The notes under the pieces: generated by a model
Databases searched by the model: none
Told to the model about the DNA's origin: nothing
What the model saw: only the letters and a program-made list of their open reading frames with translations
Source: a virus
DNA: 59,330 nucleotides
Direction: 5' to 3' (one strand)
IMG/VR virus record: IMGVR_UViG_3300050821_008403
Coordinates: 1-59,330 of that record
Made by a program: the position numbers and the translations under genes
Shown: positions 16,122-47,734 of the stretch, piece after piece
Layout of the letters: each line of letters starts with the position of its first letter
Position numbering within the stretch: position 1 is the first letter of the stretch

Positions 16122-16727
16122 CTACGCTCGCCGCTTCACGAACATGTGATTGCCGCACTTGTCACAGGTAACTTCATCGTATTCGCTCACCGGCTGGGAA
16201 TAGGTGGCGCGAACGTCGGCTTCGCTGATGAACGGCTTGTCGCCGCCATCCTTCCCGCTCTCCCGGTCGGTCGCCTGGGCGCCCTCCGCGTCCTGTCGGC
16301 CGGCCGGCGGAGCCTCGTCCGGCGTGCTCTTGCGCCGGTTGTCGGCCAGCTGGAAATCCAGCGTCGCCAAGTCGAAGGCAGTCGCCAGATTGAGCGACGC
16401 CAGCTCGCCGGCCAGCATCTCCCCATCCCAAGTCGAGAATTCCTGCACGCGGTTGTCGGCGAGGCGATCGAGCTTGATCGTCTCCTCGTCGGCGTCGGTG
16501 TAGACGCATGGGATTTTCGCCATCTTCAGCCGCACGGCCGCCTTCCAGCGGGTGTGACCCTTGACGATGACGTTGGCGCGATCGAGCACCAGCGGCACGT
16601 TAAAGCCGACCTTGGGGATCAGCTCGACTAGCTTCTCGACGGTGGCGTCATTGTGCCGGGGATTGCGGTGGTAGGGCTTGATCTGGCGCGTCTCGACCAT
16701 GACCAATTGGTTGACGATTTCCACCAT
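16122..16727 (-). CDS. ParB-domain protein with C-terminal zinc knuckle
   Basis: This 201-residue protein opens with a ParB/Srx-fold domain: IKPYHRNPRHND at about residues 16-27, VKGHTRWKAA at 55-64 (the GxxR nucleotide/phosphate motif), and DNRVQEFSTWD at 91-101. The tail holds a single CxxC (CDKC) followed by GNHMFVKR. There is no ParB helix-turn-helix or dimerisation domain, so it is not a chromosome partition protein. Many phage ParB-fold proteins of this sort bind NTPs or nick DNA. It is the last gene of a six-gene minus-strand operon whose neighbours modify DNA or bind PAPS-like substrates. Confidence 0.7.
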   Translation of the reverse strand: MVEIVNQLVMVETRQIKPYHRNPRHNDATVEKLVELIPKVGFNVPLVLDRANVIVKGHTRWKAAVRLKMAKIPCVYTDADEETIKLDRLADNRVQEFSTWDGEMLAGELASLNLATAFDLATLDFQLADNRRKSTPDEAPPAGRQDAEGAQATDRESGKDGGDKPFISEADVRATYSQPVSEYDEVTCDKCGNHMFVKRRA

Positions 16728-16739
16728 GCGATTTCTCCG

Positions 16740-17279
16740 CTAGGCGGCGTGCTGATAGGCGAGCAGGGGGATGTGCTCGACGAGCTTGGGCAGCTCGCTG
16801 TCGATGTCCGGATAGTTGGCATAGTCGGCACCGACCAACAGCTTGTTCGGCCCGGTTTGCGGGAGCCGCGGATCGCGGGCCACCTGATGCGGCGACCAGG
16901 TATCGAGGAGGATGGCCAGCCCCGGCAGGAACAGCGGCATCCGCTTAGGATCGTCCTCGAGGCCGTGCACGATAAAGCCGCCCTGGTTGTGAAGCTGGAT
17001 TTGCAGCGCGTAACGGGTGTAGCCCGGATCGGTATGCAGGGGCAGGCCGCCGCGGGAGCAGAGGAAATGCGGGCTGGTGCTCTCCTTGCCGACCTTGTGC
17101 CCAAAGGTTTTCAGCCGTCGCGTCGTCTTGCGCTCGCCCCACAGATCATAGAACCATTGCGGCTCTAGTTCTGGCAAGGCGACGACCTCGCCATAGCCTA
17201 GCTCCGCCAGCGTGCCATGCCACAAGATCGGGTGACCGGTCTGATCGCCGCTGAGCGTCGCACCCTTCGGCCAATCCAT
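16740..17279 (-). CDS. Putative 2-oxoglutarate/Fe(II)-dependent oxygenase
   Basis: From ATG 17279 the product is 179 residues. It has a possible HxD iron motif at H82-T83-D84 (LHTDPGYTRYALQIQL), a beta-strand run with GGFIVHG, a distal His at 131 in TWSPHQVARDP, and Arg at 135 and 138 that could bind 2-oxoglutarate. This is the order HxD...H...R of double-stranded beta-helix oxygenases. Spacing H to R is shorter than the usual, so the call is tentative. Placement two bases from a DNA methyltransferase suggests it could act on a methylated base, as TET-like enzymes do; that is inference. Confidence 0.45.
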   Translation of the reverse strand: MDWPKGATLSGDQTGHPILWHGTLAELGYGEVVALPELEPQWFYDLWGERKTTRRLKTFGHKVGKESTSPHFLCSRGGLPLHTDPGYTRYALQIQLHNQGGFIVHGLEDDPKRMPLFLPGLAILLDTWSPHQVARDPRLPQTGPNKLLVGADYANYPDIDSELPKLVEHIPLLAYQHAA

Positions 17280-17281
17280 CT

Positions 17282-17971
17282 CTAGGCCTCCGCCGGATCG
17301 AAGCGTGTGCCGTTGATGGCCCAGGCGCCGCCGAGCCGGTGAATTTTGCTGACCATGACCGCCAGCCTGGCCGGGTTGAGCTCGGTGCCGACGAACTGAC
17401 GGCCAACACGGAAGACCTCGACGCCGACGCGGCCACGCCCCATGCAAAGATCGGCGATGACGTCGAATGGCTCTTGCTGGCAGATCAGGTCGATGATGGC
17501 TTCCTCGTCCATGCCGGCGTAATCATGCTGGCCCGGCCGCTCGCCGCCACGCACCACGAAACAGTGATTGGCGGCCTTGTGGTAGTAGGTGGCTGGGTAG
17601 ATCGTCGCAAACGGATAACGCGCCGTCAGGCGGTCTCGCACTGTGGCGAGGTGCTGTTTGCCGATTTCAATGAAGCACGTGGCCGGCGCGATACGGTCAA
17701 TGCCGGCAAACAGGGCATCGAGGAAATTGACGAAATCGGTGTTCGTGGCCGGCCGGCCGGCCTTGGTGCGGAAGCCGTTCTCGAGCGCTAGATTGTAGGG
17801 TGGATCGACAAAGACACAGTCGGCCGTGAGCATGAAATCGGGGATGCCATCATAGAGATCGTTGACCATCACGGTCCCGCATTCACACGTCCAGACCTCG
17901 CCAGGCTGCATCGGGAAACGAGCGATGCTGCCGTCATAATCCCATTTCTTGCGCGGCTCACTCGGCCTCAT
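17282..17971 (-). CDS. DNA methyltransferase, beta-class N4/N6 type
   Basis: A 229-residue protein with catalytic motif IV DPPYN at residues 56-60, followed much later by a SAM-binding motif-I-like segment DLCMGRGRVG at 174-183 and GTELNPARL at 195. Motif IV before motif I is the beta-class order, which includes N6-adenine and N4-cytosine methylases. The CxC at residues 29-31 (TCEC) may bind metal. There is little room for a target recognition domain between the motifs, so it probably recognises a short site or relies on partners. It overlaps the IbrB-like gene by 14 bases and lies two bases from the oxygenase-like gene. Confidence 0.75.
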   Translation of the reverse strand: MRPSEPRKKWDYDGSIARFPMQPGEVWTCECGTVMVNDLYDGIPDFMLTADCVFVDPPYNLALENGFRTKAGRPATNTDFVNFLDALFAGIDRIAPATCFIEIGKQHLATVRDRLTARYPFATIYPATYYHKAANHCFVVRGGERPGQHDYAGMDEEAIIDLICQQEPFDVIADLCMGRGRVGVEVFRVGRQFVGTELNPARLAVMVSKIHRLGGAWAINGTRFDPAEA

Positions 17972-18686
17972 GCTTCAAGCGCTCTTCGATCTGGCGGTTG
18001 GTCTCCATGGCCGGCGAATAGTCGCCGCCGGCGAAGAATTTGGCGTAACCCGTAATGTGCTTGAGCCGGATGAGCTCTTGCTTCTCCAATCCCAATTCCT
18101 CGCACACTCGGCGATCGCTCCAGCCGTTGCCGAGCATCTGGATGACCAGCGCGCTCATGCCGTCGATACTGTGCTTGCCGCGCGCCCGGTTGTGACGGAT
18201 CGTCGAGGCCATGCGGTCGTTGACGCCCTTGTCGATGACGACGATCGGCAGCAGGCCGTGGTTCTTCTCGCGGATGTCGGGATAGCGCTTCATGATCGCA
18301 TAGCGATGGAAGCCATCGACGATGACGTAGCGATCGCGCTCGGCGTCGTAGATGGTGACGATCGGCTGAGTATAGCCGTCGTGCTTGATCGACACGTAGA
18401 GGAGCCGCATCTCCATGAGCGCCACGGCGTTCGGGTTGTAGTTGTTGGCGAACAGCTTCTCGAGCGGCACCCACAGCACGCGGCTCACCGGGTTGTGGCT
18501 CATGTCCGGCCCAGTGGGCTCCGGTCGGGGTGGTTTCACCGGAGGCATGGGCGTCTCCACGTGCGAGGTCGGCAGGACCGTGTCATCAACGAAGCGGTGA
18601 CAGCGCCCACAATAGCGATTTTCGATGTCGCCGCGATTGTGGGAGACGGCGCCGCAAAAGGGACACGTGAACGAGGCGACGCTCAT
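17958..18686 (-). CDS. IbrB-like ParB-domain protein with N-terminal zinc ribbon
   Basis: This 242-residue protein starts with a zinc ribbon (Cys 8, 11, 26 and 29), then a Pro-rich linker and a ParB domain: LEKLFANNYNPN near 75-86, VDGFHRYAIMKR at 123-134, and IRHNRARGKHS at 163-173. A helix-turn-helix-like end (GWSDRRVCEELGLEKQEL) follows. In E. coli the ParB-fold protein IbrB works with the PP-loop protein IbrA as a co-activator of prophage genes. Here it sits four bases from an IbrA homologue (ATGA overlap). The zinc ribbon and helix-turn-helix suggest DNA or RNA contact. The equivalence to IbrB is by domain and pairing. Confidence 0.75.
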   Translation of the reverse strand: MSVASFTCPFCGAVSHNRGDIENRYCGRCHRFVDDTVLPTSHVETPMPPVKPPRPEPTGPDMSHNPVSRVLWVPLEKLFANNYNPNAVALMEMRLLYVSIKHDGYTQPIVTIYDAERDRYVIVDGFHRYAIMKRYPDIREKNHGLLPIVVIDKGVNDRMASTIRHNRARGKHSIDGMSALVIQMLGNGWSDRRVCEELGLEKQELIRLKHITGYAKFFAGGDYSPAMETNRQIEERLKHEAE

Positions 18687-19816
18687 GACGGGCGTTCCGC
18701 AGCGAGCCGGCGGGCCTCCTTGCGCTGTTCGTAGAGCCCGCCCGGCGCCTTGCGGTCCAGCATCTTGAAGCGGGTCCGGGCATTGCCGTTCAGCGTGCCA
18801 TCGAGGTCATTGATCAGGATCTCGCGCACATGCACCTTGTGCCAGCGCTCCTCGTCCTGATTTTTCCAGCGCCGCCGGAAGCGCTCGCGATGCTGCGGCT
18901 CGGTCAGGTGTTCCAGTAGATAATCGCGATACTCGCGCCAGTCGGCGAAAAAGCCCGGCAGCTTCTCCGGCATGATCTGGCGCTCGAAGTGCGAGAAGCA
19001 ATTCACCCCTTCGACGCGCCCGAGATAGCGGTTGTACATCTCCGGCTCGGCCTCCTGCAATTCCTCGATCGAATGCCAGGCGGTCTCATGGATCAGCGCC
19101 GAGACGCGCATCTGGCGCCCGGTTTTGCCGTATTTGTAGAAGGCGTCGTAAATGCGGTTGTAGGGCCAGCCGTGGTTGGCGATCGCCGTCCAGATGTCGC
19201 GGTCGAGCCAATCATAGAGCGGCCAGAAGACGCGGGTGTTGGCGATCGGCTTGCGGCACCAGGTGATGCCCTTGAAGTAGGGCGCATGTTCAGTCAGCGA
19301 CAGGCGCCGATTCGAGCTTTCCATGGCCCGCATGCCGACCAGGACGCCGACGTGCTGCTTGCCGGCGCAATCGCATTGCGAGGGCAGCCGCTCGATCAGG
19401 TCATGAAAGCGGTCGTATTTGGGGATCGGGTTGACTTTGATGCTGAGCGGATCCTGCTCGCGAATCCATTTGGCCCGGTCGGTCAGGGCCCAGCAATTGA
19501 GGAAGTTGTCGGAGAACGACAGGCTGTTCGACAGCCGGAAGGGGATTTGAAACCAGAACGGCCGCACGTCCGGGGCGCGCATGATCTGCGCCATGTAGGT
19601 CTCGGTCGCTTTCCACTCCGCCTCTTGATCCAGCCAGAAGACTTTGAGCGGCAGCCGCCGGCGCTCGGCGGCGATGACGCGCGTGAGTTCGAACAGCACG
19701 GTCGAATCCTTGCCGCCGCTCATCGACACGATCACGTCATCGCAGTTGTCGTAGACGAAGCCGATGCGCTCGCGCGCCGCCTCAAAAACCGATTTCGTCA
19801 AGTAGTTTTGAGTCAT
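18683..19816 (-). CDS. IbrA-like PP-loop ATP pyrophosphatase (PAPS-reductase/DUF3440 family)
   Basis: From ATG 19816 the product is 377 residues, usual for the IbrA/DUF3440 group. The PP-loop SGGKDST lies at residues 33-39 and a 'FWLDQEAEW' adenine-pocket strand follows near 61. Residues about 150-185 hold a Cys pair (CDCAG) and 'VGMRAMESSNRR', then a C-terminal helical DUF3440-type region. PP-loop proteins of this class bind ATP or PAPS; DndC of DNA phosphorothioation is a relative, but the other Dnd genes are absent. IbrA homologues act with IbrB on prophage gene expression. ATG 19816 is chosen because conserved sequence begins there and it overlaps the upstream gene by 35 bases. Confidence 0.8.
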   Translation of the reverse strand: MTQNYLTKSVFEAARERIGFVYDNCDDVIVSMSGGKDSTVLFELTRVIAAERRRLPLKVFWLDQEAEWKATETYMAQIMRAPDVRPFWFQIPFRLSNSLSFSDNFLNCWALTDRAKWIREQDPLSIKVNPIPKYDRFHDLIERLPSQCDCAGKQHVGVLVGMRAMESSNRRLSLTEHAPYFKGITWCRKPIANTRVFWPLYDWLDRDIWTAIANHGWPYNRIYDAFYKYGKTGRQMRVSALIHETAWHSIEELQEAEPEMYNRYLGRVEGVNCFSHFERQIMPEKLPGFFADWREYRDYLLEHLTEPQHRERFRRRWKNQDEERWHKVHVREILINDLDGTLNGNARTRFKMLDRKAPGGLYEQRKEARRLAAERPS

Positions 19817-20072
19817 CGTCAACCTTGGCCCGGTTGATGATCTGACACTTCGCCAGGTCATAGTCCGGCATCGCCCAATATTGCCAGCCGTCGCCAGGGC
19901 GCCAGTATCGGTAGCGCCGGCCCTGGAAGCGGCCAAGCACACCCTCGCGGCGAATCACATGGAAGAGCTCGACGAACAGCTCCTCGTTCTCCGGCGTGCG
20001 CACGACGTACTCGTGCGGAATCTCGGGCATGGTCTTAGCGAACTTGAAGGTGAGGCGGCTGAGGTCGACCAT
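19782..20072 (-). CDS. Small protein heading the IbrAB-like operon
   Basis: A 96-residue protein, MVDLSRLTFKFAKTMPEIPH followed by EYVVR and a GRRYRYW...GWQYWAMP beta-rich centre, then a polar tail. It overlaps the IbrA-like gene, so it is probably translated with it. The aromatic-rich strands recall a compact nucleic-acid-binding fold, but I do not recognise the family. Upstream frames in phase lack a credible start, supporting ATG 20072. It is the first gene of the six-gene unit. Confidence 0.5.
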   Translation of the reverse strand: MVDLSRLTFKFAKTMPEIPHEYVVRTPENEELFVELFHVIRREGVLGRFQGRRYRYWRPGDGWQYWAMPDYDLAKCQIINRAKVDDDSKLLDEIGF

Positions 20073-20420: not shown

Positions 20421-23400
20421 TCACTCGGCCGCCTGCCGCAAGGGCACGTTTTGCACCTTCTCGTTCAAAACTTCGACGATCCTACTTGGCAGGCGCCAGC
20501 CTTTGATGAGCCCATAGATCGCTGGAATGACTACAAGCGTCAGTATGGTCGAGGAGATCATGCCGCCGATCATGGGCACGGCAATGCGCTGCATCACCTC
20601 TGATCCGGTCCCGGTGCTCCACAGGATCGGCACGAGACCCGCCATGATGGCGACGACCGTCATCATCTTCGGGCGGACGCGCTCCACGGCGCCGAGCATG
20701 ATCGCCTCGTGGAGATCGGATCTCGCGAAGGGGCGTCCGTCGCGCGCTCGTTCGGACCTGAGCTCGGCCATGGCCTGATCGAGATAGATCAGCATGACGA
20801 CCCCGGTCTCGGCAGCGACGCCGGCGAGCGCAATAAAGCCTACCGCGACCGCAACCGACATGTTGAAGCCGAGCCACCACATCAGCCACACGCCCCCGAC
20901 GAGTGCGAAGGGCAAGGACAGCATGACGATCAGGGTCTCGGTGAGCCTCTGGAAGTTCAGGTAGAGCAGAAGGAAGATGATCAACAGCGTAAGCGGGACG
21001 ACGATTTGCATCCGCGCCTTGGCCCTCTCAAGATATTCGAACTGTCCGCTCCAACCTATCGAATAACCCGTGGGCAGCTTGACCTGATCCGCCACCGCTC
21101 TTTGCGCATCGGCGACATATCCGCCGAGATCGCGGCCATTGATGTCGACATAGATGTAGGCTGCGAGCTGACCGTTCTCGGTGCGGATCGAGGTGGCCCC
21201 GCGTGTAAGGCTCACTCTCGCCACCTCCCCGAGCGGCACGGCACCGCCGCCCGGCAGAGGCACCTCCACATCTGTGGCAATCGCCTGCGGGCTCGATCTG
21301 AGATCGCGCGGATAGCGGATATTCACGCCGTAGCGCTCGCGTCCCTCGACCGCTGTCGTGACCGTCTCGCCCCCCAGCGCAGTTGCAATCACGTCCTGCA
21401 CATCGCCGACGGACAAGCCATAGCGGCCGAGCGCCTCGCGATCAGGGATGATCTCGAGATAGTAGCCTCCGATCACCCGCTCGGCATAAGCGCTGGATGT
21501 CCCGGGCACTGTCCTCAAGGTCGCCTCGACCTGGCGTGCCACCTTCTCGATTTCTCCAAGGTCGTTGCCGAATACCTTGACGCCGACTGGCGTGCGTATC
21601 CCGGTCGAAAGCATGTCGATACGAGCCCGAATCGGCATGGTCCAGGCATTTGAGACACCCGGAAACTGCAACGCCTTATCCATCTCCGTCTTGAGGCTGT
21701 CGATGGTCACGCCGGGCCGCCATTCGCTTTTCGGTTTGAGGTTGATGACGGTCTCGAACATCTCGGTAGGAGCGGGATCGGTAGCGGTCGCGGCTCGGCC
21801 CGCCTTGCCATAAACCGACTCGACCTCAGGAAACGACTTGATGATGCGGTCCTGGACTTGCAGAAGCTCGGCGGATTTCGTGATCGAGATGCCGGGCAGG
21901 GTCGTCGGCATATAGAACAGCGTGCCTTCGTCGAGACTAGGCATGAACTCGGAGCCGAGCTGACGCGCCGGCCAGACGGTCACGGCGATTGCGGCGAGCG
22001 CCAACAATATCGTGAAGCTCTTCGCCTTCAGCACGCCACGAATAATCGGGCGGTAAAGCCAAATCAGCAGCCGGTTGATCGGGTTTCTCTTCTCGGAGAT
22101 GATCTTTCCCCTTATGAAGGTCACCATGAGCGCGGGCACGAGCGTCACCGAGAGCAAAGCTGCGGCCGCCATTGCAAAAGTCTTGGTGAAGGCCAGCGGC
22201 CCGAAAAGCCGGCCTTCCTGCGATTCGAGCGTAAAGATCGGCAGGAACGACACCGTGATAACAAGGAGGCTCAAGAAGAGCGCTGGACCGACCTGGCTTG
22301 CCGCGTCGACGAGGATCTGACGACGCAGCCTGTCCGGCGGCGCGCGCTCGAGATGCTTGTGGGCGTTCTCGATCATCACGATGGCGGCGTCGATCATGGC
22401 CCCGACCGCTATAGCGATGCCTCCGAGGCTCATAATGTTCGAGCCGAGCCCGATCAGCTTCATGCCGGCGAACGCGATCAGGATACCAACCGGCAGCATG
22501 AGAATGGCGACCAACGCGCTGCGCAAATGCAGCAGGAAGACCACGCAGACGAGTGCGACAATGACGCTCTCCTCGGTGAGCGTCTTTCTGAGGGTCTCGA
22601 TCGCCGCCTCGATCAACCGCGACCGGTCATAGACCGGAACAATCTCCACGCCCTTAGGCAGGCTTGCGGTAATGTCGGCGAGTTGCTGTTTCACATTCTT
22701 GATCACGGTCAGAGCGTTGGCACCGAAACGCTGCAGCACGATGCCGCTCGCGACCTCGCCTTCGCCATTCAGCTCGGCGATCCCGCGCCGCTCGTCAGGG
22801 CCAATCTCGACGCGAGCCACATCCTTGAGGCGCAACGGGGTTCCGCCGCTGGTCTTGAGCACGATGTTTTCGATATCGGCCGGTGATCGGATATAGCCGC
22901 GCCCGCGAACCATGAACTCGAACTCGGAGAGCTCAAGCGTGCGGCCGCCAACATCGCGATTGCTGGCGCGCACAGCGTCGCGCAGGGCCGACAAAGAGAT
23001 GCCTTGGGCGCGTAGACGCAGCGGATCGACGACGATGTTGTATTGCTTGACGAAGCCGCCGACGCTCGCGACCTCGGCAACACCGTCGGCCTTGGAAGCG
23101 GAGAAGCGGATGACCCAATCTTGCAGTGAGCGCAGCTCGGCGAGGGTCATGTCCTTTGCGATGACGGCGTATTGATAGACCCAGCCGACGCCGGTCGCAT
23201 CCGGGCCGAGGCCCGGCGTCACGCCGGCAGGCAGGCGCTTCGACGCGGCATTAAGGTATTCGAGCACGCGGCTCCTGGCCCAGTAAGGATCAGTGCCGTC
23301 CTCGAAGATGATGTAGACGAAGGACACGCCGAAGAAGGAGAAGCCACGCACCACCTTGGACTTCGGCACGGTCAGCATGGCCGTCGTCAGCGGGTATGTG

Positions 23401-23594
23401 ACCTGATCTTCGACGACCTGCGGCGCCTGTCCGGGATAATCCGTGAAGACGATAACCTGAACGTCAGACAGGTCCGGGATGGCGTCGAGCGGCAGGGTCT
23501 TGAGCGCATAAACGCCGGCCACGATGGCGAAGGCAGTGCCGACCAAAATCAAGATCAGGTTGTGCGCCGACCAGGCGATCAGGCGCGCGATCAT
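20421..23594 (-). CDS. cusA: CusA/CzcA-type heavy-metal efflux RND pump
   Basis: This 1057-residue protein is a full-length heavy-metal RND transporter of the inner membrane. Residues 1-30 form the first membrane helix, followed by the diagnostic LPLDAIPDLSDVQV and the porter domain (GLGPDATGVGWVYQYAV). The central membrane block starts near residue 335 with SVIVALVCVVFLLH and includes the proton-relay region GGIAIAVGAMIDAAIVM with its Asp. The second porter half carries the periplasmic methionines typical of Cu(I)/Ag(I) pumps (EFMPSLDEGTLFYMPTTLPG). It overlaps the adaptor gene by four bases. No outer-membrane channel gene is present nearby. Cu/Ag versus Zn/Co specificity is not certain. Confidence 0.88.
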   Translation of the reverse strand: MIARLIAWSAHNLILILVGTAFAIVAGVYALKTLPLDAIPDLSDVQVIVFTDYPGQAPQVVEDQVTYPLTTAMLTVPKSKVVRGFSFFGVSFVYIIFEDGTDPYWARSRVLEYLNAASKRLPAGVTPGLGPDATGVGWVYQYAVIAKDMTLAELRSLQDWVIRFSASKADGVAEVASVGGFVKQYNIVVDPLRLRAQGISLSALRDAVRASNRDVGGRTLELSEFEFMVRGRGYIRSPADIENIVLKTSGGTPLRLKDVARVEIGPDERRGIAELNGEGEVASGIVLQRFGANALTVIKNVKQQLADITASLPKGVEIVPVYDRSRLIEAAIETLRKTLTEESVIVALVCVVFLLHLRSALVAILMLPVGILIAFAGMKLIGLGSNIMSLGGIAIAVGAMIDAAIVMIENAHKHLERAPPDRLRRQILVDAASQVGPALFLSLLVITVSFLPIFTLESQEGRLFGPLAFTKTFAMAAAALLSVTLVPALMVTFIRGKIISEKRNPINRLLIWLYRPIIRGVLKAKSFTILLALAAIAVTVWPARQLGSEFMPSLDEGTLFYMPTTLPGISITKSAELLQVQDRIIKSFPEVESVYGKAGRAATATDPAPTEMFETVINLKPKSEWRPGVTIDSLKTEMDKALQFPGVSNAWTMPIRARIDMLSTGIRTPVGVKVFGNDLGEIEKVARQVEATLRTVPGTSSAYAERVIGGYYLEIIPDREALGRYGLSVGDVQDVIATALGGETVTTAVEGRERYGVNIRYPRDLRSSPQAIATDVEVPLPGGGAVPLGEVARVSLTRGATSIRTENGQLAAYIYVDINGRDLGGYVADAQRAVADQVKLPTGYSIGWSGQFEYLERAKARMQIVVPLTLLIIFLLLYLNFQRLTETLIVMLSLPFALVGGVWLMWWLGFNMSVAVAVGFIALAGVAAETGVVMLIYLDQAMAELRSERARDGRPFARSDLHEAIMLGAVERVRPKMMTVVAIMAGLVPILWSTGTGSEVMQRIAVPMIGGMISSTILTLVVIPAIYGLIKGWRLPSRIVEVLNEKVQNVPLRQAAE

Positions 23595-25033
23595 GGCGTG
23601 GTCTCCGCTGCTGCCATGCCACTCAACGCGGCCTTGAGATTGCTCTCTGCGTCGATCAGGAAATTGGCGGCGACCACCACCCGGTCGCCGGATGCGATGC
23701 CACCTCGGATCTCGGTGTAGCCGCCGCCCTGAACTCCAAGCTTGACCTCACGCGGCTCGAAGCGGCCTTCACCCTTCTCGAGAATCACGATTTGGCGTTT
23801 GCCCGTATCGATAACCGCGCTATCGGGAACGGCGAGAACCGGCTTCGCCGCGCCCGCCGCGATCTCGACATCGGCATACATGTCGGGATGGAGCAGCTCG
23901 TCCGGGTTCGGAATCTCGATCCGCACCTTGATCGAGCGGGTCTCCGGATTGACATGGGGGTGAATGGCCGTGATACGGGCCTGGAACGTCCGCCCCGGAA
24001 GGCCGCGGATTCGAATCGTTGCTAATTGGCCGGGGGCTACGCTCGCAAACTCATATTCGGGCACGTCGGCGAGCACCCACACCGTCGATAGGTCGGCGAT
24101 GCGGAAGAGAACGTCGCCGGCGGCCATCTTCATGCCTTCGGTCGCGTTGCGCAGTAGCACTACGCCGTCGTGCGGGGAGGACCAAATGAAGGCTGGTGGC
24201 ACCTGCCGGGTGCGCTCAATCTCGGCGATGACTTCCGCAGGCACAGCGAGGTTCTCGAGCCGCCGCTTTGCGCCTTCGAGGCCCGGATTGATCTGGAGTT
24301 GGACTGCTGCGGCGGTGATATCGGGCGAGCGGAGCTGCAGCAAAGGCTGACCTTTGTGAACATGGTCTCCGGTCGTGACATTCTCGACGCTGCCGACGAA
24401 GCCGTCAGTCGGAACAGACACGGCCCAGATGCGCCGCTCATCGGGCTGGACAGTGCCCGGCACGCGCAACTCGCGCACGATGACGCGTTCGGAGGCAGTG
24501 TCGCTGCGAACTCCCGTTCGCTGCAGCTTGCCCGGCGCGATCTTGATCGTCGCACCGTTCTCGTCCTCGCCGGCATAGACGGGGACGTAATCCATCCCCA
24601 TCGAATCTTTCTTCGGCACCGGCGAGGTGTCGGGCAGCCCCATGGGGTTGCGATAGTAAAGAACCTTCTTCGGCTCAGCGCTCGCGGAGGCCGCAGATCC
24701 AGCTTCGGCTTCTAGTTTATCGTCGAAGCTGATGTCTTCGCGCACCCGGACCGCAATAAACTCGCGTCCCGCGGCGGTCTTGCGTGGCTCAGCCGCGTAG
24801 ATGGGTTGGCCATCTGGATCGCGATAATAGATCACCGGTCCCGATGGCGCCGGCTTAGCGCTCGGAGGCGCGGCGATCCCCAGTTTGAGCCAGGGGATCG
24901 ATTGGAGCCAGGGCGTGGATTGAAGCCACGGAATTACCGGAAGTTCGGATCCGCTCCGCCCAGCCCGGAAGCCCAGAGCCCCTGCCGCCGATATGGCGAC
25001 GAGGGTCAGGGCGACGCGCCCGGCCCGCTTCAT
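23591..25033 (-). CDS. cusB: CusB-type efflux adaptor with heavy-metal-binding domains
   Basis: A 480-residue periplasmic adaptor. An N-terminal membrane segment or signal (about residues 5-25) is followed by two HMBD-like repeats: a degenerate one (IYYRDPDGQPIYA near 70) and a complete one, YYRNPMGLPDTSPVPKKDSM near 126, with the Met pattern that binds Cu or Ag. Then come the barrel-sandwich and beta-barrel domains of membrane-fusion proteins (GFVGSVENVTTGDHVHKGQ, 'FEPREVKLG'). It delivers metal to CusA and links it to an outer-membrane channel. The start overlaps the upstream gene by four bases, placing it in the same operon. Confidence 0.85.
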   Translation of the reverse strand: MKRAGRVALTLVAISAAGALGFRAGRSGSELPVIPWLQSTPWLQSIPWLKLGIAAPPSAKPAPSGPVIYYRDPDGQPIYAAEPRKTAAGREFIAVRVREDISFDDKLEAEAGSAASASAEPKKVLYYRNPMGLPDTSPVPKKDSMGMDYVPVYAGEDENGATIKIAPGKLQRTGVRSDTASERVIVRELRVPGTVQPDERRIWAVSVPTDGFVGSVENVTTGDHVHKGQPLLQLRSPDITAAAVQLQINPGLEGAKRRLENLAVPAEVIAEIERTRQVPPAFIWSSPHDGVVLLRNATEGMKMAAGDVLFRIADLSTVWVLADVPEYEFASVAPGQLATIRIRGLPGRTFQARITAIHPHVNPETRSIKVRIEIPNPDELLHPDMYADVEIAAGAAKPVLAVPDSAVIDTGKRQIVILEKGEGRFEPREVKLGVQGGGYTEIRGGIASGDRVVVAANFLIDAESNLKAALSGMAAAETTP

Positions 25034-25434
25034 GACACGGCCTTGAAGACGAGCTTGCTTTGAACCGTGCCGTTCTCGCCCTGGATCTTGGCGCCTAGCG
25101 AGAGCTGCCAGCCGCCTGCCATGCCAAGATTGGCCTTGAACTTGTAGACGCCAGATTCCGAACTCGGCATCGGCATGACCTTCGTCACCATTTCCTGCAT
25201 GCCCTCGGGCTCCATATCGAGACGCGTGGCGAAGATGACGGCGTCCGGGACGGGCTTGCCGGTCGTCTTATTGACCAGGCGAACCGCGATGACAGCGTCG
25301 CCTTTCTTGATCTCGGTCTGAATGAGCTGGAACTCGTAGTCGTCGATGTTGGCTCGAGCCTGAGAGCCAATCCCCATAGAGACAAGGCTGATGAGCATCG
25401 CGATGACGATGCGCTTCACGTTCGAAAAGAGCAT
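25030..25434 (-). CDS. YtkA/FixH-like secreted protein of the metal-efflux operon
   Basis: A 134-residue protein with an N-terminal signal peptide (IAMLISLVSMGIGSQARA) and a YtkA/FixH-like Ig domain: 'YEFQLIQTEIKKGDAVIAVRL', 'TGKPVPDAVIFATRLDM', Met-rich 'EPEGMQEMVTKVMPM' and a final strand. Proteins of this type are common immediately upstream of cusAB-like genes and may bind copper in the periplasm through the Met cluster. It overlaps cusB by four bases, so the three genes form one transcription unit read leftward from about 25.5 kb. Confidence 0.7.
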   Translation of the reverse strand: MLFSNVKRIVIAMLISLVSMGIGSQARANIDDYEFQLIQTEIKKGDAVIAVRLVNKTTGKPVPDAVIFATRLDMEPEGMQEMVTKVMPMPSSESGVYKFKANLGMAGGWQLSLGAKIQGENGTVQSKLVFKAVS

Positions 25435-30662: not shown

Positions 30663-31694
30663 TTACGCTCCTTTATTTTCGAGCGCCCGCAACTGCACGA
30701 CTTTCTCGCGGCTGGGCGTCAGGCGGCGGCGCCAGCCATTGGCACGCTCGCCGAGATTGACCAGCTCGACATCAAGCCGGCGCAGGGCCTCCCAATCTTC
30801 AAGCATGGAAATTTGCGACAACACCGCTTCGATGCGGGCCAGCTTCTCGGCATCGGCGTCGGTATTGAGGCTTCGCTTGAGATTGTCGGCGACCGCATTG
30901 GCGAACACGGCGAACAGCGGCGACGGCCGGTCTTTGGCGCGGCGGGCGGCTTTGAAATCGACGGTGCTGCGGATGTCACGATATGGGATGGTGCCCTCGC
31001 GCACCTGCTTGGCCGTATCGGCGGCGGCGCGCCCATACTGCCGCTTGGCGGTTTCGATCTCCCGCCGCGGGCGAGCACTCGCGGCGCCGACTTTGTCAAT
31101 TTGTTCGATGCGCGCCAAAGCGCGCTCAGTGATCTCCCGCGCCGAGCGAACAGTTTGCTCGGCAAAATCCTCTCTCGCCATATAGCCGCCCTGGATGAGG
31201 GTATAGGCGGAATGACAGGCCGCTGCGGTGTTGTTGAGGATTGGGGTCTGACCGTCCTGAACGCGTGTCCATCCTAAAAGCGAGGCAATCGCAACAGATT
31301 GATGCCGTTTCTCCTTCGTGGAGGAGACTAAACCGCTCTTGATCGCCGCCTCCCAGCTTTCCAGCTGAATGAGGAAGGAGGCGTTGTAATCCTCAAGGTT
31401 CTCGCGCCCCATGTACTGAAGCATTTGCTTATCGGTTAGCTTTTCGATGATCAGCGGCAGCGTCTTGAATTTGAGGCGGCGGGCCGCCTCGACGCGGTGA
31501 TGACCGAAGGCGAGTTCGTATTGCCACAAACGCTGCTCACCGATGCGTCGGGCAATGATGCTCGGCCACAAGCCCACATCGCTGATAGAGCGCTGAAGCG
31601 CCTTGAGCTTGCTGTCGATATAGGGGAAGGCATGCAGGCGGCGGTACGGGTTGATGGCGATACGATCGATGTCGACGCTGATAATTTCAGCCAT
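30663..31694 (-). CDS. ParB-domain phage protein
   Basis: A 343-residue protein with a ParB N-terminal domain: IDRIAINPYRRLHAF at 9-23, SISDVGLWPSIIARR, then FGHHRVEAARRL at 63-74 (the GxxR nucleotide motif with His-His-Arg) and MGRENLEDYNASFL near 95. The remainder is helical and unlike chromosomal ParB; a partner ParA gene is absent. Such proteins in phages may regulate early genes or nick DNA. It is one of three ParB-fold proteins here and starts eight bases inside the upstream gene. Confidence 0.7.
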   Translation of the reverse strand: MAEIISVDIDRIAINPYRRLHAFPYIDSKLKALQRSISDVGLWPSIIARRIGEQRLWQYELAFGHHRVEAARRLKFKTLPLIIEKLTDKQMLQYMGRENLEDYNASFLIQLESWEAAIKSGLVSSTKEKRHQSVAIASLLGWTRVQDGQTPILNNTAAACHSAYTLIQGGYMAREDFAEQTVRSAREITERALARIEQIDKVGAASARPRREIETAKRQYGRAAADTAKQVREGTIPYRDIRSTVDFKAARRAKDRPSPLFAVFANAVADNLKRSLNTDADAEKLARIEAVLSQISMLEDWEALRRLDVELVNLGERANGWRRRLTPSREKVVQLRALENKGA

Positions 31695-38946: not shown

Positions 38947-39335
38947 GCGAGATCGTCCACAACCGCGACCAGAAATTCGACCTGCAGCTCTCCCAGGCTT
39001 TGATCGACGAGCGCCGCCTGGCGGCTATTTTTGCCGGGGCGAAGATCGAGCGCATCGAACTCAAATCCGAAAGCTGGTTGTGGGAGCGGACTGGCAACAT
39101 CTGCATCGAATATCGGCGTGCCGGCCGGCCCTCTGGCATCTCAACGACCGAAGCTGACGTTTGGGTTCACGAGCTCAAGCGCGATGGCGAGACGCTCGTC
39201 TATTTGATGTTCCCCATCGACCGTCTGAAAGCGCTGTGCCGGCAGGCTTTTGCGCGCGGCGATTATCGCCTGGGCGGCGGCGATGGCGGCGAATTCGATG
39301 TCATCCTGCTCAAGCTCAAGGACATCCTCGCATGA
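38943..39335 (+). CDS. Phage early protein, possible nuclease-like fold
   Basis: A 130-residue protein coupled to the VRR-NUC gene by an ATGA overlap. It shows RRLAAIFAGAKIERIELKSE followed by 'NICIEYRRAGRPSGISTTEADVWVHEL', which recalls a PD-(D/E)XK arrangement with E-x-E and a later acidic residue, but the diagnostic lysine is not in the expected place. The last third is 'FPIDRLKALCRQAF'. I class it as a frequent phage protein of unknown function with a possible nuclease-like fold. Confidence 0.5.
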   Translation: MSEIVHNRDQKFDLQLSQALIDERRLAAIFAGAKIERIELKSESWLWERTGNICIEYRRAGRPSGISTTEADVWVHELKRDGETLVYLMFPIDRLKALCRQAFARGDYRLGGGDGGEFDVILLKLKDILA

Positions 39336-40324
39336 CAGCGCTGGCGAGATATGATGCGGCCCGACGTGCCCTCGCCGAGGCCTGTCGGATCGATGTGGTG
39401 ATCGACATCCACGACTGGGCGGCGACCTTCATGAATTATGCTCGCCAAGCCAAGGATGTCGAACTCCTCAATCAGGCGGTCGAAGTTCGTCTATTGGCCG
39501 AGCGCAGGGCGGGCCAGTTGCTCGAACAGATGGCGAGGAACGGCGAGCGCGATCAAGGCAAAGGCGGTGACCGAAAATCACGGTCCCGCGAAATGACCGT
39601 GAAACTTGCTGACCTCGGTGTCACCAAAAATCAGTCGTCGCATTGGCAGAAGCGTGCGGCGTTGAGCGATGAGGCCTTTGCGCTGGTAATGGCTTCCGTC
39701 AAGCAGGAGGCCATCGCCGTCGTCGCCATGAGCGCGGCTGAACGTATGGCGGTGAAGCGCGAACGACGGCAAGAGCGCGAGCGTGAGCTGGCCGTGAAAA
39801 TCCGGGCGCTGCCGGAGGCCAAGTTCGGCGTGCTTTATGCCGATCCGCCCTGGCGCTTCGAGCCCTGGTCACGTGATACCGGCATGGATCGCGCCGCCGA
39901 CAACCATTACCCCACGATGGAACTTGAGGAGATCAAGGCATTGGAGGTGCCGGCGGCCGACGACTGCGTGCTGTTCCTCTGGGCAACGCCAGCGATGATT
40001 TTGCAGGCGTTCGAGGTCATGGCGACCTGGGGCTTCGTCTATAAGACGCATTCCGTCTGGATCAAGGACAAGCTAGGCACCGGTCATTGGCTCATTAACC
40101 AGCACGAGGATTTGCTGATCGGCGTCAAAGGCAAAGTGCCGGCGCCGGCGCCCGGCGAGCAATGGCCGTCAGTAGTCGTGGAAGCTCGTCGCCAGGAGCA
40201 TTCGCGCAAGCCCGAGATCTTCGCCGAGCTGATTGAGACGATGTTCCCCAATGTCCCGAAGCTTGAGCTGTTCGCTCGGCAGTTACGGCCGGGCTGGGAG
40301 GCTTGGGGCAACGAGGCAGCTTAA
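39332..40324 (+). CDS. MT-A70-type N6-adenine DNA methyltransferase
   Basis: A 330-residue protein from ATG 39332. The N-terminal 160 residues are helical, with 'EVRLLAERRAGQLLEQMARNGER' near 52-74 and DLGVTKNQSSHWQKRA near 94-109, a recognisable DNA-contact module in phage MT-A70 proteins. The catalytic domain starts at VLYADPPWRFEPW, DPPW being residues 171-174. It contains VLFLWATPAMILQAFEVM and ends with PGWEAWGNE. Such enzymes methylate adenine N6 and may protect phage DNA or time gene expression. A short overlap couples it to the previous gene. Confidence 0.85.
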   Translation: MTALARYDAARRALAEACRIDVVIDIHDWAATFMNYARQAKDVELLNQAVEVRLLAERRAGQLLEQMARNGERDQGKGGDRKSRSREMTVKLADLGVTKNQSSHWQKRAALSDEAFALVMASVKQEAIAVVAMSAAERMAVKRERRQERERELAVKIRALPEAKFGVLYADPPWRFEPWSRDTGMDRAADNHYPTMELEEIKALEVPAADDCVLFLWATPAMILQAFEVMATWGFVYKTHSVWIKDKLGTGHWLINQHEDLLIGVKGKVPAPAPGEQWPSVVVEARRQEHSRKPEIFAELIETMFPNVPKLELFARQLRPGWEAWGNEAA

Positions 40325-44626: not shown

Positions 44627-44700
44627 CCGACCGGCTGACCCTGACCCGTGCCCTTGAGGCCGGCGGTAGACGAGGTCCAACGAATGCCCCCAAGTCGTAG
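44623..44700 (+). pseudogene. Phage gene cut short by an insertion
   Basis: ATG 44623 opens MTDRLTLTRALEAGGRRGPT then stops at 44700. The first 15 residues are the start of a small coiled-coil/membrane phage protein I recognise (…LTRAL.AGG then a helix). Here the frame runs into the 5' flank of the large nuclease-methyltransferase gene, so the original gene was interrupted at about 44670. Confidence 0.45.
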
Positions 44701-47700
44701 AGCTAACGCGACCCGAACGCACGAGCAGACCATCAACACCGCTTTGGCAGAGATATTAGAGGGGTTAGGGCGGACGTGGACCATGCATGCCGAGGACATC
44801 GGACACATTTTTGAGGAAGGCGGCCGGCCGGACATCTTGATTGGAAAATCTGACGGCTGGCCCATTGTCATCGAGGCCGAGGTCGGAAACCACAGGCAAG
44901 CGGAAATTGAGGCAAAGTCGAGGCTAGGAAAGACAATCTCCTCGAACTCCCACAAAGTGCATGCAGCTGTCGCACTGGTCTATGCCGACGACCTAAGAAG
45001 CCATCGCGGGCAACAATTACGTGAGGCTATCCGAACCACACTGTTCGAATACGCTCTTTATTCGAGCGATCAGAACGACCAACCTATTCGCCTTCCGACA
45101 GAAGGGTGGATCGTCGGCGGCATCAAAGAGCTAGCCATCCTCCTCCACCGTTCGAGCATTCCCGCTTGGCGCGTCGAAGCCCTCGCCGATGTGCTGGAAA
45201 GCGGCGTTACCAGAGCTGCAGGCAGCTTTTCAGCTGCTCACCCCGCCGGGAGCGCTCTAGGCCACGATGTTGCGAAACTGTTGGGACAGGTCGACGACAC
45301 CGACGGACAGACTAGGCGAATGGCCATGACGGTCATCGCCGACGCCTTCGTGTTCCACGCCGCTCTCTCCGAAGCCGAGATGATCATCCACGACCCAGCG
45401 AGTCGGGCGGATCGCAGAGTGAGGGAACCGCGCGCATTCAGGCAACAAGGGGCGTTCAGACCGACCGCCATCATCGACGAATGGGAAAGAATCTTAGAAA
45501 TAAATTACTGGCCAATTTTCCATACTGCCAGCAGTATACTACAGGTAATGCCAACGCAACTTGCGGCAACGATCCTAAATCTTCTGTGGGCTACTGCTGA
45601 GCAGCTAATTGTGGGGGGTGTCACGCGGTCACATGACCTTACTGGCGTGGTCTTTCAGAGGCTGATTGCGGACCGGAAGTTCCTCGCAACCTACTACACC
45701 ATGCCCTCCGGCGCGGCGCTGTTGGCGGGTCTCGCACTTCCGATTTCACATCCTCCGGCGAGTGGTAAATGGAGCGACCCCACCGCAGTTTCGAGCCTGC
45801 GAATCGGTGACTTCGCCTGCGGCACCGGAACGCTCCTCTCAACTGCATATCAGAGGATCGGGCTTCTCCACGAGATGCATGGCGGAAACCCGAAAGAATT
45901 GCACCCTGTCATGATGCAACGGGGCTTGGTCGGCCTGGATGTACTCACGGTTGCAGTTCACCTCACCGCAGCCATGCTCGCCGGATCATATCCCGACACG
46001 CCTTTCGCAGGTGAATGCCTTCTCACGATGCCTTACGGCACCCATCAGTGGGGCGTGTGCGTCGGTTCGCTTGATCTGCTCGACCCGCAGACGTCGTTCG
46101 AGATCATCCAGGCGGCCGCCCATACTGCCGGCGGCCGAGGGACCGCGGAGATTCGTGATCTTATGGCCCGAGTTGGTCACGGACATTTCGACTTAGTCAT
46201 TATGAACCCGCCATTCACTCGACATGGGGCGCACGAAGGAGACAGGACTCAGGTTCATAATCCGGCATTTGCCGCGTTCGGCGCAGACGAAGAAGAGCAG
46301 AACAGACTTGCGAACCGGCTCAGCAGGCTTGCGGCCCGAGGCGTGGCGCACGGTCACGCCGGTCTGGCTTCCTATTTTGCCGACCTAGCCGACCGGAAAC
46401 TCGCGGGGGACGGCACTCTCGCTCTCGTGCTGCCGCTTTCGGCAATGAGCGGCAGCTCTTGGGAGAAGGTAAGAACACTGTGGCGCAACAACTACTCTTC
46501 GATCATGGTGGTTACAATTGCCGGTGAGGGGTCACATTTGCGTTCGTTTTCCGCCGACACCGGGATGGCCGAGTGCCTTGTCGTGGCTCGGAAGAGCAGG
46601 GTTCCCGGTGAGAACCGGGCCACTTTCGTAGTGCTTTCAAGACAGCCTGAAAGTTCGTTGCACGGCGAACTTTTGGCCCTAGTAATCTGTGAGGCGGCGA
46701 CAGCTGGGACCGTTAGGCGGCTTGAGGATGGGCCGTTCGGCGGCACGCGTATTCTGCTTGGCGAGGTAGTCGAAGGCGAAGCCATCAATTGCCCGCTTCC
46801 TGCGGAAGGCCCTTGGCCGTTGGTCGGGATCAAGGACCTAAGCTTGGCCCAAACGGCGCACCAACTTTCTTTCGGGCGGCTTTGGATCGAGGGGATGCCG
46901 GCCGCGCACCATGTGTCCGTGCCCGTCGCCCCCCTAGAGCAGATCATCGTCCGCATGGGCCCGCATGATCTCGATATTACCGGGGCACAGGTGAAGGCCG
47001 ACCGGATGCCCCAGGGACCGTTCGAGCTTATCCCAGGCACCGCACCTACTATGGCTTATCCGTCCTTGTGGAATCGCGACAGCGCGAGGGAGCGTCGCCC
47101 GCATGTGGAGCCTGATTCGCATTGCCGCGTTCGGCAAATTCAAGGGCGGATTCCCGCCGCGCTCGCGGAGCGCGCGGAAGCCCGTTGGGCGACGGCTACG
47201 CGTGCTCATTATGGGCGCGACCTTCAATTCAATTCGCAGTCGACCATCGTGGCAATGACTGACCAGCCGACTCTCGGCGGTCGGGCGTGGCCGTCCGTCG
47301 TCTTCGACGATCCACGTCACGAAGTAACCTTTGCCCTCTGGGCAAATTCGACGCTGGGCCTCCTATGTCACTGGTGGATGTCAAACAAGTCGCAGACTGG
47401 TAGAGGGACAACAACGATCACGAGTATCCCGGCAATCTCGACCCTCGACGTGCGGCAGCTATCGGATGATCAGCTAGGAGTGGCCGGCGAGGAATTCGAG
47501 GCCGTAAAGGATTGCCGGCTCCTCCCATTTGATCAGCTCGACGAAGATGAAGCGCGAGCAAACTTGGATCGCCGGCTTCTCGTCAACGTGCTGGGTTTGT
47601 CAGCAACCCTTTGTGACCCCAACGGGCCTATGGAGCGTCTCCGCCGCAAGCTCGCCGCAGAACCGCAGATTCGCGGTGGCAAACAAACTCGGCTCGTATT

Positions 47701-47734
47701 CACCGAGGACGGAGAGGAAAGCGTCCCACGTTAG
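44684..47734 (+). CDS. Single-chain nuclease-methyltransferase (type IIG/BREX-like restriction enzyme)
   Basis: From ATG 44684 the product is 1016 residues. Residues about 15-110 look like a PD-(D/E)XK nuclease: GRPDILIGK with Asp50, then VIEAEVG with E64 and E66, although no Lys occupies the usual place. A helical region with RLIADRKFLATYYTMPSGA near 327-345 precedes the N6-adenine methylase core: SAM motif DFACGTGTLL at 376-385 and catalytic NPPF at 508-511. Residues about 700-950 would be the target-recognition part. A single chain with all three functions is the plan of type IIG enzymes; BREX/DISARM methylases lack the nuclease. It has lower GC than its surroundings, lies between interrupted phage genes and is probably cargo for excluding other phages. 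Confidence 0.7.
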   Translation: MPPSRRANATRTHEQTINTALAEILEGLGRTWTMHAEDIGHIFEEGGRPDILIGKSDGWPIVIEAEVGNHRQAEIEAKSRLGKTISSNSHKVHAAVALVYADDLRSHRGQQLREAIRTTLFEYALYSSDQNDQPIRLPTEGWIVGGIKELAILLHRSSIPAWRVEALADVLESGVTRAAGSFSAAHPAGSALGHDVAKLLGQVDDTDGQTRRMAMTVIADAFVFHAALSEAEMIIHDPASRADRRVREPRAFRQQGAFRPTAIIDEWERILEINYWPIFHTASSILQVMPTQLAATILNLLWATAEQLIVGGVTRSHDLTGVVFQRLIADRKFLATYYTMPSGAALLAGLALPISHPPASGKWSDPTAVSSLRIGDFACGTGTLLSTAYQRIGLLHEMHGGNPKELHPVMMQRGLVGLDVLTVAVHLTAAMLAGSYPDTPFAGECLLTMPYGTHQWGVCVGSLDLLDPQTSFEIIQAAAHTAGGRGTAEIRDLMARVGHGHFDLVIMNPPFTRHGAHEGDRTQVHNPAFAAFGADEEEQNRLANRLSRLAARGVAHGHAGLASYFADLADRKLAGDGTLALVLPLSAMSGSSWEKVRTLWRNNYSSIMVVTIAGEGSHLRSFSADTGMAECLVVARKSRVPGENRATFVVLSRQPESSLHGELLALVICEAATAGTVRRLEDGPFGGTRILLGEVVEGEAINCPLPAEGPWPLVGIKDLSLAQTAHQLSFGRLWIEGMPAAHHVSVPVAPLEQIIVRMGPHDLDITGAQVKADRMPQGPFELIPGTAPTMAYPSLWNRDSARERRPHVEPDSHCRVRQIQGRIPAALAERAEARWATATRAHYGRDLQFNSQSTIVAMTDQPTLGGRAWPSVVFDDPRHEVTFALWANSTLGLLCHWWMSNKSQTGRGTTTITSIPAISTLDVRQLSDDQLGVAGEEFEAVKDCRLLPFDQLDEDEARANLDRRLLVNVLGLSATLCDPNGPMERLRRKLAAEPQIRGGKQTRLVFTEDGEESVPR

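Follow-up and report, generated by a model that had tools for sequence, protein, structure and literature searches.

Comparison with described systems

Pairs of IbrA and IbrB (YbdN and YbdM in E. coli) have been found in settings that lack the second ParB-fold protein and the small protein g1 described below, often accompanied by SNF2 helicases, which are typically DNA translocases; in the phage locus analysed here, clear homologues of both (g2 and g3) are coupled in the same order, inside an island of tailoring enzymes. The CmoA-CmoX-CmoY carboxymethylcytosine-glycine system resembles this island in having a base-modifying transferase, an AMP-forming ligase and a frequent ParBc neighbour, which sets a precedent for such a ligase and a ParBc protein beside a DNA carboxymethyltransferase (PMC12783734), but its transferase is a C5-cytosine enzyme and its ligase is of the asparagine-synthetase type, whereas the present locus offers a DPPY amino-methyltransferase, an IbrA-type PP-loop protein and oxygenase/glycosyltransferase functions. 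The glucosyl-hydroxymethylcytosine pathway of T4 and the TET/JBP-type phage pathways follow a logic of hydroxylation and then glucosylation that may apply here also; they differ in that the oxygenase candidate g5 matches no TET/JBP family, the island glycosyltransferase is GT25-like, no hydroxymethylase gene was seen in the island, and the IbrAB/ParB core is additional. The asparagine-synthetase-type ligase of the CmoA-CmoX-CmoY system has a PP-loop fold. DndC/DndB phosphorothioation likewise combines a PP-loop enzyme with a ParB-like partner, and weak matches to DndC were obtained, but IbrA lacks conserved Fe-S/persulfide cysteines; DndA, DndD and DndE had no match among the six proteins and were not recognised among recurrent neighbours.

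The reading given somewhat better than even odds is that the six genes represent one variant of a modular phage island whose product is a hypermodified base in phage DNA. Searches of the literature turned up no description of this kind of island, which is apparently widespread and undescribed; the computational surveys of phage base modification by Iyer, Aravind and colleagues in 2013 could anticipate parts of it.

Organization of the locus

The window, that is, the whole stretch of 59,330 nucleotides analysed, is the IMG/VR virus record IMGVR_UViG_3300050821_008403 (59.3 kb), which is possibly incomplete. Six orfs between positions 16122 and 20072 were verified:

g1, 19782..20072, minus strand, 96 aa, small conserved protein, core component
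g2 (IbrA-like), 18683..19816, minus strand, 377 aa, PP-loop ATP pyrophosphatase (PAPS_reduct and DUF3440)
g3 (IbrB-like), 17958..18686, minus strand, 242 aa, ParB-superfamily protein
g4 (MT4), 17282..17971, minus strand, 229 aa, small beta-order amino-methyltransferase
g5, 16740..17279, minus strand, 179 aa, double-stranded beta-helix (DSBH) protein, putative Fe(II)-dependent oxygenase
g5 triad codons, minus strand, invariant residues: H82 at 17036-17034, D84 at 17030-17028, H131 at 16889-16887
g6 (ParB2), 16122..16727, minus strand, 201 aa, second ParB-fold protein with a C-terminal CxxC

The tight coupling described in the sequence-only reading is real: g1 overlaps g2, g2 overlaps g3 (at ATGA) and g3 overlaps g4, while 2 bases separate g4 from g5 and 12 bases separate g5 from g6. 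The window phage also has an integrase gene.

The IbrA-like and IbrB-like proteins

The assignment of g2 to the PAPS-reductase/DUF3440 type of PP-loop protein holds, with both Pfam domains above their curated cut-offs (PAPS_reduct, E 1.1e-12; DUF3440, E 3.9e-6), a match to PHROG 2302 (E 5e-80), an SGGKDS motif at 19720-19703 and an IbrB partner. Its homologues in phage islands nearly form a single lineage (4 tree changes, compared with 35.5 when shuffled). The earlier suggestion that a base might be thiolated is disfavoured because an alignment of 220 IbrA sequences contains no conserved cysteine (no Cys column exceeds 52%); no cysteine desulfurase or DndDE partner was seen, and a DndC-like function was set aside.

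The solved structures closest to IbrA (FAD synthase, CysD and PAPS reductase) act on small nucleotides or sulfate, as would suit an island that makes a small molecule, such as a modified nucleotide or signal, for defence or counter-defence instead of a genomic base. The resemblance of IbrB to free serine kinases and the diffusible aminopropyl donor that is the product of the AdoMet decarboxylase of some islands also fit such a molecule; the ParB-type partners, the linkage to terminase genes and the absence of a recurrent effector (nuclease or pore) among clustered neighbours do not, and this explanation is considered very unlikely.

The IbrB-like g3 belongs to PHROG 2159 (ParB, E 1.1e-68) and has a DGFHR motif at 18317-18303, and g6, also proposed earlier to have a ParB fold, belongs to PHROG 620 (ParB, E 2.2e-38); both have the ParB_N domain, at Pfam scores below the gathering cut-off, and the GxHR-type motif of the ParB/sulfiredoxin superfamily. 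The zinc ribbon attributed to g3 (N-terminal CxxC...CxxC) is present in the window copy only and is missing from its relatives. Among 206 aligned IbrB sequences, DGFHR and TIRHNRARGxH are nearly invariant, and profile matches include ParB/Noc as well as free serine kinase/SbnI structures.

According to their published name and annotations, IbrA and IbrB would be transcriptional co-activators of prophage genes, and their neighbours here would be separate cargo; E. coli ybdNM, without assigned biochemistry and under the LysR-type regulator CitR, agrees with this view. However, over 200 sequences keep the PP-loop ATPase and ParB/Srx active-site motifs nearly unchanged, and the gene order with tailoring enzymes is conserved, which makes a purely regulatory role as improbable as a small-molecule product. 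Regulation may instead be secondary to modification of the DNA.

The methyltransferase g4 and the small protein g1

The features of g4 agree with the sequence-only reading of it as a beta-class DNA methyltransferase: the DPPY motif IV (DPPYN at 17806-17792, residues 56-60) precedes the SAM-binding motif I (D174xC..G178.G180), the arrangement of DPPY amino-methyltransferases, and profile matches are to an adenine-specific DNA methyltransferase (5hfj), CcrM and MboIIA, with Pfam N6_N4_Mtase (E 3.4e-5) slightly under its cut-off. About 27 g4 homologues are located near IbrA. The gene varies in position, and two relatives have it upstream of g1.

The small protein g1, to which no identity had been given earlier, is a conserved island component. 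It has no Pfam, PHROG or NCBIfam match, but its homologues (19 near IbrA in the first set) share the pattern FAKTMPxIPHxY...YWxM...NRAK, and P19, H20, Y22, Y65, W66 and N80 are nearly invariant in an alignment of 41 rows. Phages Hendrix, Leaf and Rasputia encode g1 as a fusion with a class I methyltransferase-like domain.

The 179-residue protein g5

No family in Pfam, PHROGs or NCBIfam accounts for g5. It is absent from the 50,697 isolate phage records and from plasmids, where only chance hits were obtained even with divergent queries; a scan of genome contigs gave no match, and PDB searches returned only chance matches to amylase and CD-NTase (single sequence and 6 sequences) or one chance match (53-sequence profile). 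A structure prediction from 6 close sequences had a pLDDT of 43; repeated with 53 sequences, AF2 produced a double-stranded beta-helix with pLDDT 93.8 and pTM 0.89, the fold expected if g5 were the oxygenase that had been suspected, and the HxD...H triad (H82, D84, H131) is invariant in 53/53.

Foldseek matched the model to 7v4m (prob 1.00), to PolD (0.93) and to cupins, and its matches include a nucleoside-antibiotic hydroxylase; in the viral library, the best structural neighbours are the Asp/Asn/Pro hydroxylase-like 2OG oxygenases (prob 1.00), from which g5 differs in having no detectable sequence homology to them and no conserved 2OG-anchoring Arg/Lys. These structural matches are weak (best PDB E 7e-3, TM ~0.35; viral E 2e-4, TM 0.39). 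After the distal His there is no conserved Arg/Lys, the usual 2-oxoglutarate anchor (K146 is not conserved); R89, kept in 52/53, could anchor 2OG from another strand. The protein g5 is annotated as a putative DSBH Fe(II)-dependent oxygenase, and it defines a new oxygenase-like family that is missing from the searched family libraries and isolate phages.

Conservation and composition of the island

The same genes occur in nearly the same order, with 48-90% identity, in other viral contigs, which answers the question of co-occurrence raised earlier; because the gene set recurs there and at dozens more loci, the arrangement is not due to chance. When g5 alone was used as the query, 56 loci were found, with IbrA (54), ParB2 (51), IbrB (49), a glycosyltransferase (48) and g1 (32) within 6.5 kb, usually in the order ParB2-g1-glucosyltransferase-g5-IbrA-IbrB-TerS-TerL. 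For comparison, IbrA was found in 215 of 50,697 isolate phage records. Of 44 less redundant g5 loci, 36 have IbrA as the next gene downstream and 33 have the glycosyltransferase directly upstream, and the tight order g5-IbrA-IbrB spans 34 g5 clusters at 70% identity. TerS and TerL directly follow the island in many relatives. ParB2 is present in 72 of 73 distinct core viral islands (being one of the two markers that define that set), and at least one tailoring enzyme in 68 of the 73; in an IbrA-anchored sample, 23 of 28 islands have a tailoring enzyme.

The main tailoring enzymes are the amino-methyltransferase, g5 and the GT25-like glycosyltransferase, which belongs to PHROG 854 (glucosyltransferase, E 1e-9 to 3e-8) and weakly matches GT25 LPS enzymes (E 7e-3). 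Rarer are a class I methyltransferase (Methyltransf_24, 5e-20), an AdoMet decarboxylase (6e-11), an NAD-dependent epimerase (2e-44) and an acetyltransferase (GNAT). Among g5-bearing core islands, a g4-type methyltransferase is present in 3/48 and a glycosyltransferase in 41/48; the choice of g5 as anchor biases these counts, and with IbrA as anchor the anticorrelation does not reach significance. The window variant, with methyltransferase and g5 but no glycosyltransferase, is uncommon. A glycosyltransferase was looked for across the window and its nearest kin and was found only in the L009 record, where it stands with g5 at 47.4 kb, ~13-16 kb away from g1-IbrA-g4-IbrB-ParB. Oxidation of a methylated base, which had been proposed from the window, is doubtful as a general rule because g5 pairs far more often with a glycosyltransferase than with a g4-type methyltransferase; methylation followed by oxygenation was set aside as a general pathway, subject to the same anchoring bias. 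Of the earlier interpretation, then, the fold and the co-occurrence stand, thiolation is not supported, and the broader idea of phage nucleic-acid modification is strengthened by the glycosyltransferases, epimerases, AdoMet decarboxylase and other tailoring enzymes of these islands.

Surface glycan synthesis is another typical setting for enzymes of the GT25-like, epimerase and O-methyltransferase types, which counts against DNA hypermodification. So does the lack of the glycosyltransferase in the window and, the L009 record aside, in its nearest kin. The glycosyltransferase, epimerase and O-methyltransferase might act on the glycans of the host surface or on proteins of the virion, for superinfection exclusion or by protein hydroxylation of the Asp/Asn-hydroxylase kind, with IbrAB and ParB as regulatory neighbours; the weak LPS-like glycosyltransferase match and the usual action of the nearest viral relatives of g5 on proteins are in keeping with this. 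Such a role is nevertheless unlikely, in that it leaves the g5-IbrA-IbrB order and the near-constant ParB2 unexplained, and no membrane or flippase genes are conspicuous among the island genes read.

An island of the same type is found in the cultured Microbacterium phage Hendrix, in which GT2-GT-[g1+methyltransferase]-GNAT-IbrA is at one end of the record and IbrB-ParB2-ParB2-(TerS)-TerL at the other. The islands of Hendrix, Leaf and Rasputia adjoin tRNA genes, as might be expected if the target were tRNA or rRNA and the phage were sustaining translation. Modification of tRNA commonly involves PP-loop enzymes, 2OG oxygenases and methyltransferases, and IbrA has remote profile matches to PP-loop tRNA thiolases and lysidine synthetase; but the two ParB-fold proteins, the DPPY methyltransferase with its profile matches to DNA adenine methyltransferases and the TerS/TerL neighbourhood point to DNA, and no tRNA gene is present in the 59,330-nt window, so that an RNA target is quite unlikely.

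Proposed function

If the island hypermodifies DNA, IbrA would use AMP-forming chemistry to activate an acceptor, the nucleotide-binding ParB-fold proteins IbrB and ParB2 might supply an NTP-dependent DNA loading or kinase step, and g1 would be an accessory of this core. Swappable tailoring enzymes would then elaborate the product of the core: in the window phage the pair would be the amino-methyltransferase g4 and the oxygenase g5, and in most g5-bearing relatives g5 and the GT25-like glucosyltransferase, taken to hydroxylate first and then glycosylate. A candidate base-level transferase and successive tailoring enzymes, which would act on the base, occur together in the cluster, as expected for hypermodification. 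The purpose is likely to be shielding from host nucleases or the marking of DNA ahead of packaging. That DNA is the substrate is inferred, and so are the succession of steps, what IbrA and IbrB catalyse, and this purpose. Hypermodification in temperate phages has been argued to be awkward for the host (PMC3918226), and the integrase of the window phage therefore counts against it.

A wider proposal, made tentatively and at rather less than even odds, is that IbrA and IbrB are the core of a class of DNA base hypermodification that has so far gone unrecognised: a PP-loop enzyme and ParB-fold proteins would attach a reactive group to a base of phage DNA, and swappable cassettes (the new DSBH oxygenase with the GT25-like glycosyltransferase, the amino-methyltransferase, aminopropyl donor synthesis, acetylation and O-methylation) would diversify it into combinatorial DNA disguises. 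The cultured phages Hendrix, Leaf and Rasputia make the island hypothesis directly testable. For IbrA and IbrB, which so far have a regulatory name, a place at the core of a tailoring island provides a concrete biochemical hypothesis; if it is true, phage DNA hypermodification would gain a large combinatorial class and, with it, new enzymes that transfer sugar and oxygen.

Gene content of the window

The window is an IMG/VR virus record of 59,330 bases. Mu-like baseplate genes occupy its left and terminase and capsid genes its right, with an integrase at 28.1-29.3 kb. The six tightly coupled minus-strand genes described by the sequence-only reading are all present as open reading frames, adjacent genes overlapping or lying 2-12 bases apart, a spacing that would fit a single transcript:

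20072-19782, minus strand: g1, a conserved small protein of 96 residues
19816-18683, minus strand: g2, IbrA-like PP-loop protein (PAPS_reduct 1.1e-12, DUF3440 3.9e-6)
18686-17958, minus strand: g3, IbrB-like ParB-superfamily protein (PHROG 2159, 1.1e-68)
17971-17282, minus strand: g4, small methyltransferase with DPPYN ahead of the SAM motif
17279-16740, minus strand: g5, 179 residues, predicted beta fold
16727-16122, minus strand: g6 or ParB2, second ParB-fold protein (PHROG 620, 2.2e-38)

Relatives open with nearly the same peptide, which supports 20072 as the start of g1. Pfam, PHROGs, NCBIfam and PADLOC gave no family for either g1 or g5; the g4 profile matches DNA adenine methyltransferases. 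Upstream, the genes adjoin a heavy-metal efflux-like set (20421-25434, minus strand) of a YtkA-like protein (YtkA 1.8e-22) and, as read from their sequences, a 1057-residue CusA/CzcA-type RND pump and a membrane-fusion-like protein. The window also encodes a third ParB protein outside the island (PF02195 1e-9; 30663-31694, minus strand), two more methyltransferases on the plus strand (39161-40324 and 44648-47734), one an MT-A70 enzyme (1.9e-28) with an N-terminal extension matching PHROG 21315 and the other a protein of 1028 residues that weakly matches Eco57I-type methylases, and a 584-residue sulfatase just ahead of the terminase large subunit (PF00884, 1.8e-46; 49349-51103, plus strand), odd cargo for a phage.

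Conservation of the gene set

Among viral contigs, close relatives retain the gene set with 48-90% identity. In two of these g4 sits ahead of g1, and it is therefore a movable part. A scan with an IbrA alignment gave 80 viral and 80 bacterial loci, and searching with profiles of the six genes revealed four distant homologues of g5, every one directly upstream of IbrA. An enlarged g5 alignment then gave 58 loci selected by g5 alone. Among the 56 that were annotated, some of them repeats of the same contigs, genes within 6.5 kb included IbrA in 54, ParB2 in 51, IbrB in 49, a glycosyltransferase in 48 and g1 in 32; by comparison, 215 of 50,697 isolate phage records contain an IbrA match. The co-occurrence that the sequence-only reading had proposed to seek elsewhere is thus conserved. 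The usual order, ParB2-g1-glycosyltransferase-g5-IbrA-IbrB-TerS-TerL, links the genes to the terminase. When 44 less redundant loci were counted, the gene next to g5 on the downstream side was IbrA in 36, and on the upstream side a glycosyltransferase in 33. Clustering at 70% identity divides the 53 g5 sequences into 34 groups, so they do not represent one virus repeatedly sampled.

Predicted functions of the proteins

An AlphaFold2 model of g5 from the 53-sequence alignment (pLDDT 93.8, pTM 0.89) has a largely beta fold. The HxD...H triad (H82, D84, H131) is invariant in the alignment, as are H71, G106, D126, P130 and D152, and R89 is kept in 52 sequences. Among viral structures Foldseek ranks Asp/Asn/Pro hydroxylase proteins highest (E 2e-4, prob 1.0); matches in the PDB, which include the nucleoside-antibiotic hydroxylase 7v4m (prob 1.0), PolD and also cupins, are weak (E near 1e-2, TM near 0.35). 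The double-stranded beta-helix anticipated for g5 is therefore well supported as a prediction, and g5 is likely to be an Fe(II) oxygenase; 2OG is no more than a possible cosubstrate, since the alignment has no conserved basic residue after the distal histidine.

In profile searches the nearest solved structures to IbrA are FAD synthase, CysD and PAPS reductase, and those to IbrB are ParB/Noc and the ParB-fold serine kinases SerK and SbnI. The PP-loop SGGKDS and several D/E/R residues hardly vary over 220 IbrA sequences, but no cysteine is conserved, which speaks against an iron-sulfur or persulfide mechanism of the DndC kind. Accordingly, thiolation is disfavoured. A phage modification system, as first proposed, remains the best reading of the six genes, one to which we give slightly better than even chances. 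In Mycobacterium phage Gaia (L018 6302-7201) another beta-barrel protein, an ectoine-synthase-like cupin (PF06339 1.3e-32), is joined to the IbrA/IbrB pair by fusion to IbrB.

Modularity of the islands

At least one tailoring enzyme is encoded in 68 of 73 distinct islands (viral loci with IbrA and either ParB2 or g1), and in 23 of 28 in the IbrA-anchored subset, which is free of g5 bias. These exchangeable proteins include g4-type and class I methyltransferases, g5, a Methyltransf_24 enzyme (5e-20), GNAT acetyltransferases, an NAD-dependent sugar epimerase (2e-44), AdoMet decarboxylase and a glycosyltransferase matching PHROG 854 'glucosyltransferase' (1e-9 to 3e-8) and, weakly, GT25. The epimerase is inserted between glycosyltransferase and g5 in two loci (L207 5037-6008, L208 1588-2559), an arrangement that may reflect a change of sugar donor. 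AdoMet decarboxylase-like proteins in two IbrA loci (L118 7300-7992, PF02675 5.7e-11 by search; L125 1343-1729, recognised by inspection of the sequence) hint at possible aminopropyl chemistry.

A glycosyltransferase is present in 41 of 48 g5-bearing core islands, a pairing that suggests hydroxylation followed by glycosylation. The window phage has g4 and g5 as its tailoring set, and no glycosyltransferase was found in its record, which may be incomplete. Oxidation of a methylated base, as earlier suggested, is possible in this phage but does not look general: g4 and g5 share only three core islands, a count biased by anchoring, and in the IbrA-anchored sample, too small to be decisive, g4 occurs in none of four islands with g5 and nine of 24 without. 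One record (L009) links the two island types: g1-IbrA-g4-IbrB-ParB lies at about 31-34 kb in it, and glycosyltransferase-g5 follows at 47.4 kb.

Of 80 bacterial loci, 31 have an SNF2 helicase together with IbrAB, as do 25 of 55 other viral loci, Flavobacterium phage 1H and Streptococcus phage CHPC1148, but none of the 73 islands; this frequent association suggests a separate three-gene system. On the IbrA tree the island label needs 4 changes versus 35.5 with shuffled labels, so the island association is largely inherited.

Proposed mechanism and cultured carriers

In the proposed scheme IbrA would activate an acceptor using ATP, IbrB and ParB2 would either bring the complex onto DNA or contribute a nucleotide-driven step, and tailoring enzymes would extend the product. 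The closest precedent in the literature is the CmoA-CmoX-CmoY system of DNA hypermodification, where an asparagine synthetase-type ligase acts on carboxymethylated cytosine and ParBc genes of unknown role often adjoin (PMC12783734). The literature searched describes IbrA/IbrB as 'co-activators of prophage gene expression' or by plain annotation, and assigns no biochemistry to E. coli YbdNM. No paper describing the island was found in the openly accessible literature, so its novelty is provisional. The six genes are read as a variant of phage DNA hypermodification systems; a new class of such systems, defined by the IbrAB core, is a tentative idea, with the odds somewhat against it.

Among isolate phages, the glycosyltransferase queries matched only Microbacterium phage Hendrix (two records). 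The right end of its record carries, in this order, GT2, another glycosyltransferase, a g1-class I methyltransferase-like fusion, GNAT and IbrA; the left end carries IbrB, two ParB2-like proteins, a TerS-sized protein and TerL. In phages Leaf and Rasputia the right end is of the same kind, with more glycosyltransferases. The island genes tested in Hendrix and Leaf included no recognisable g5.
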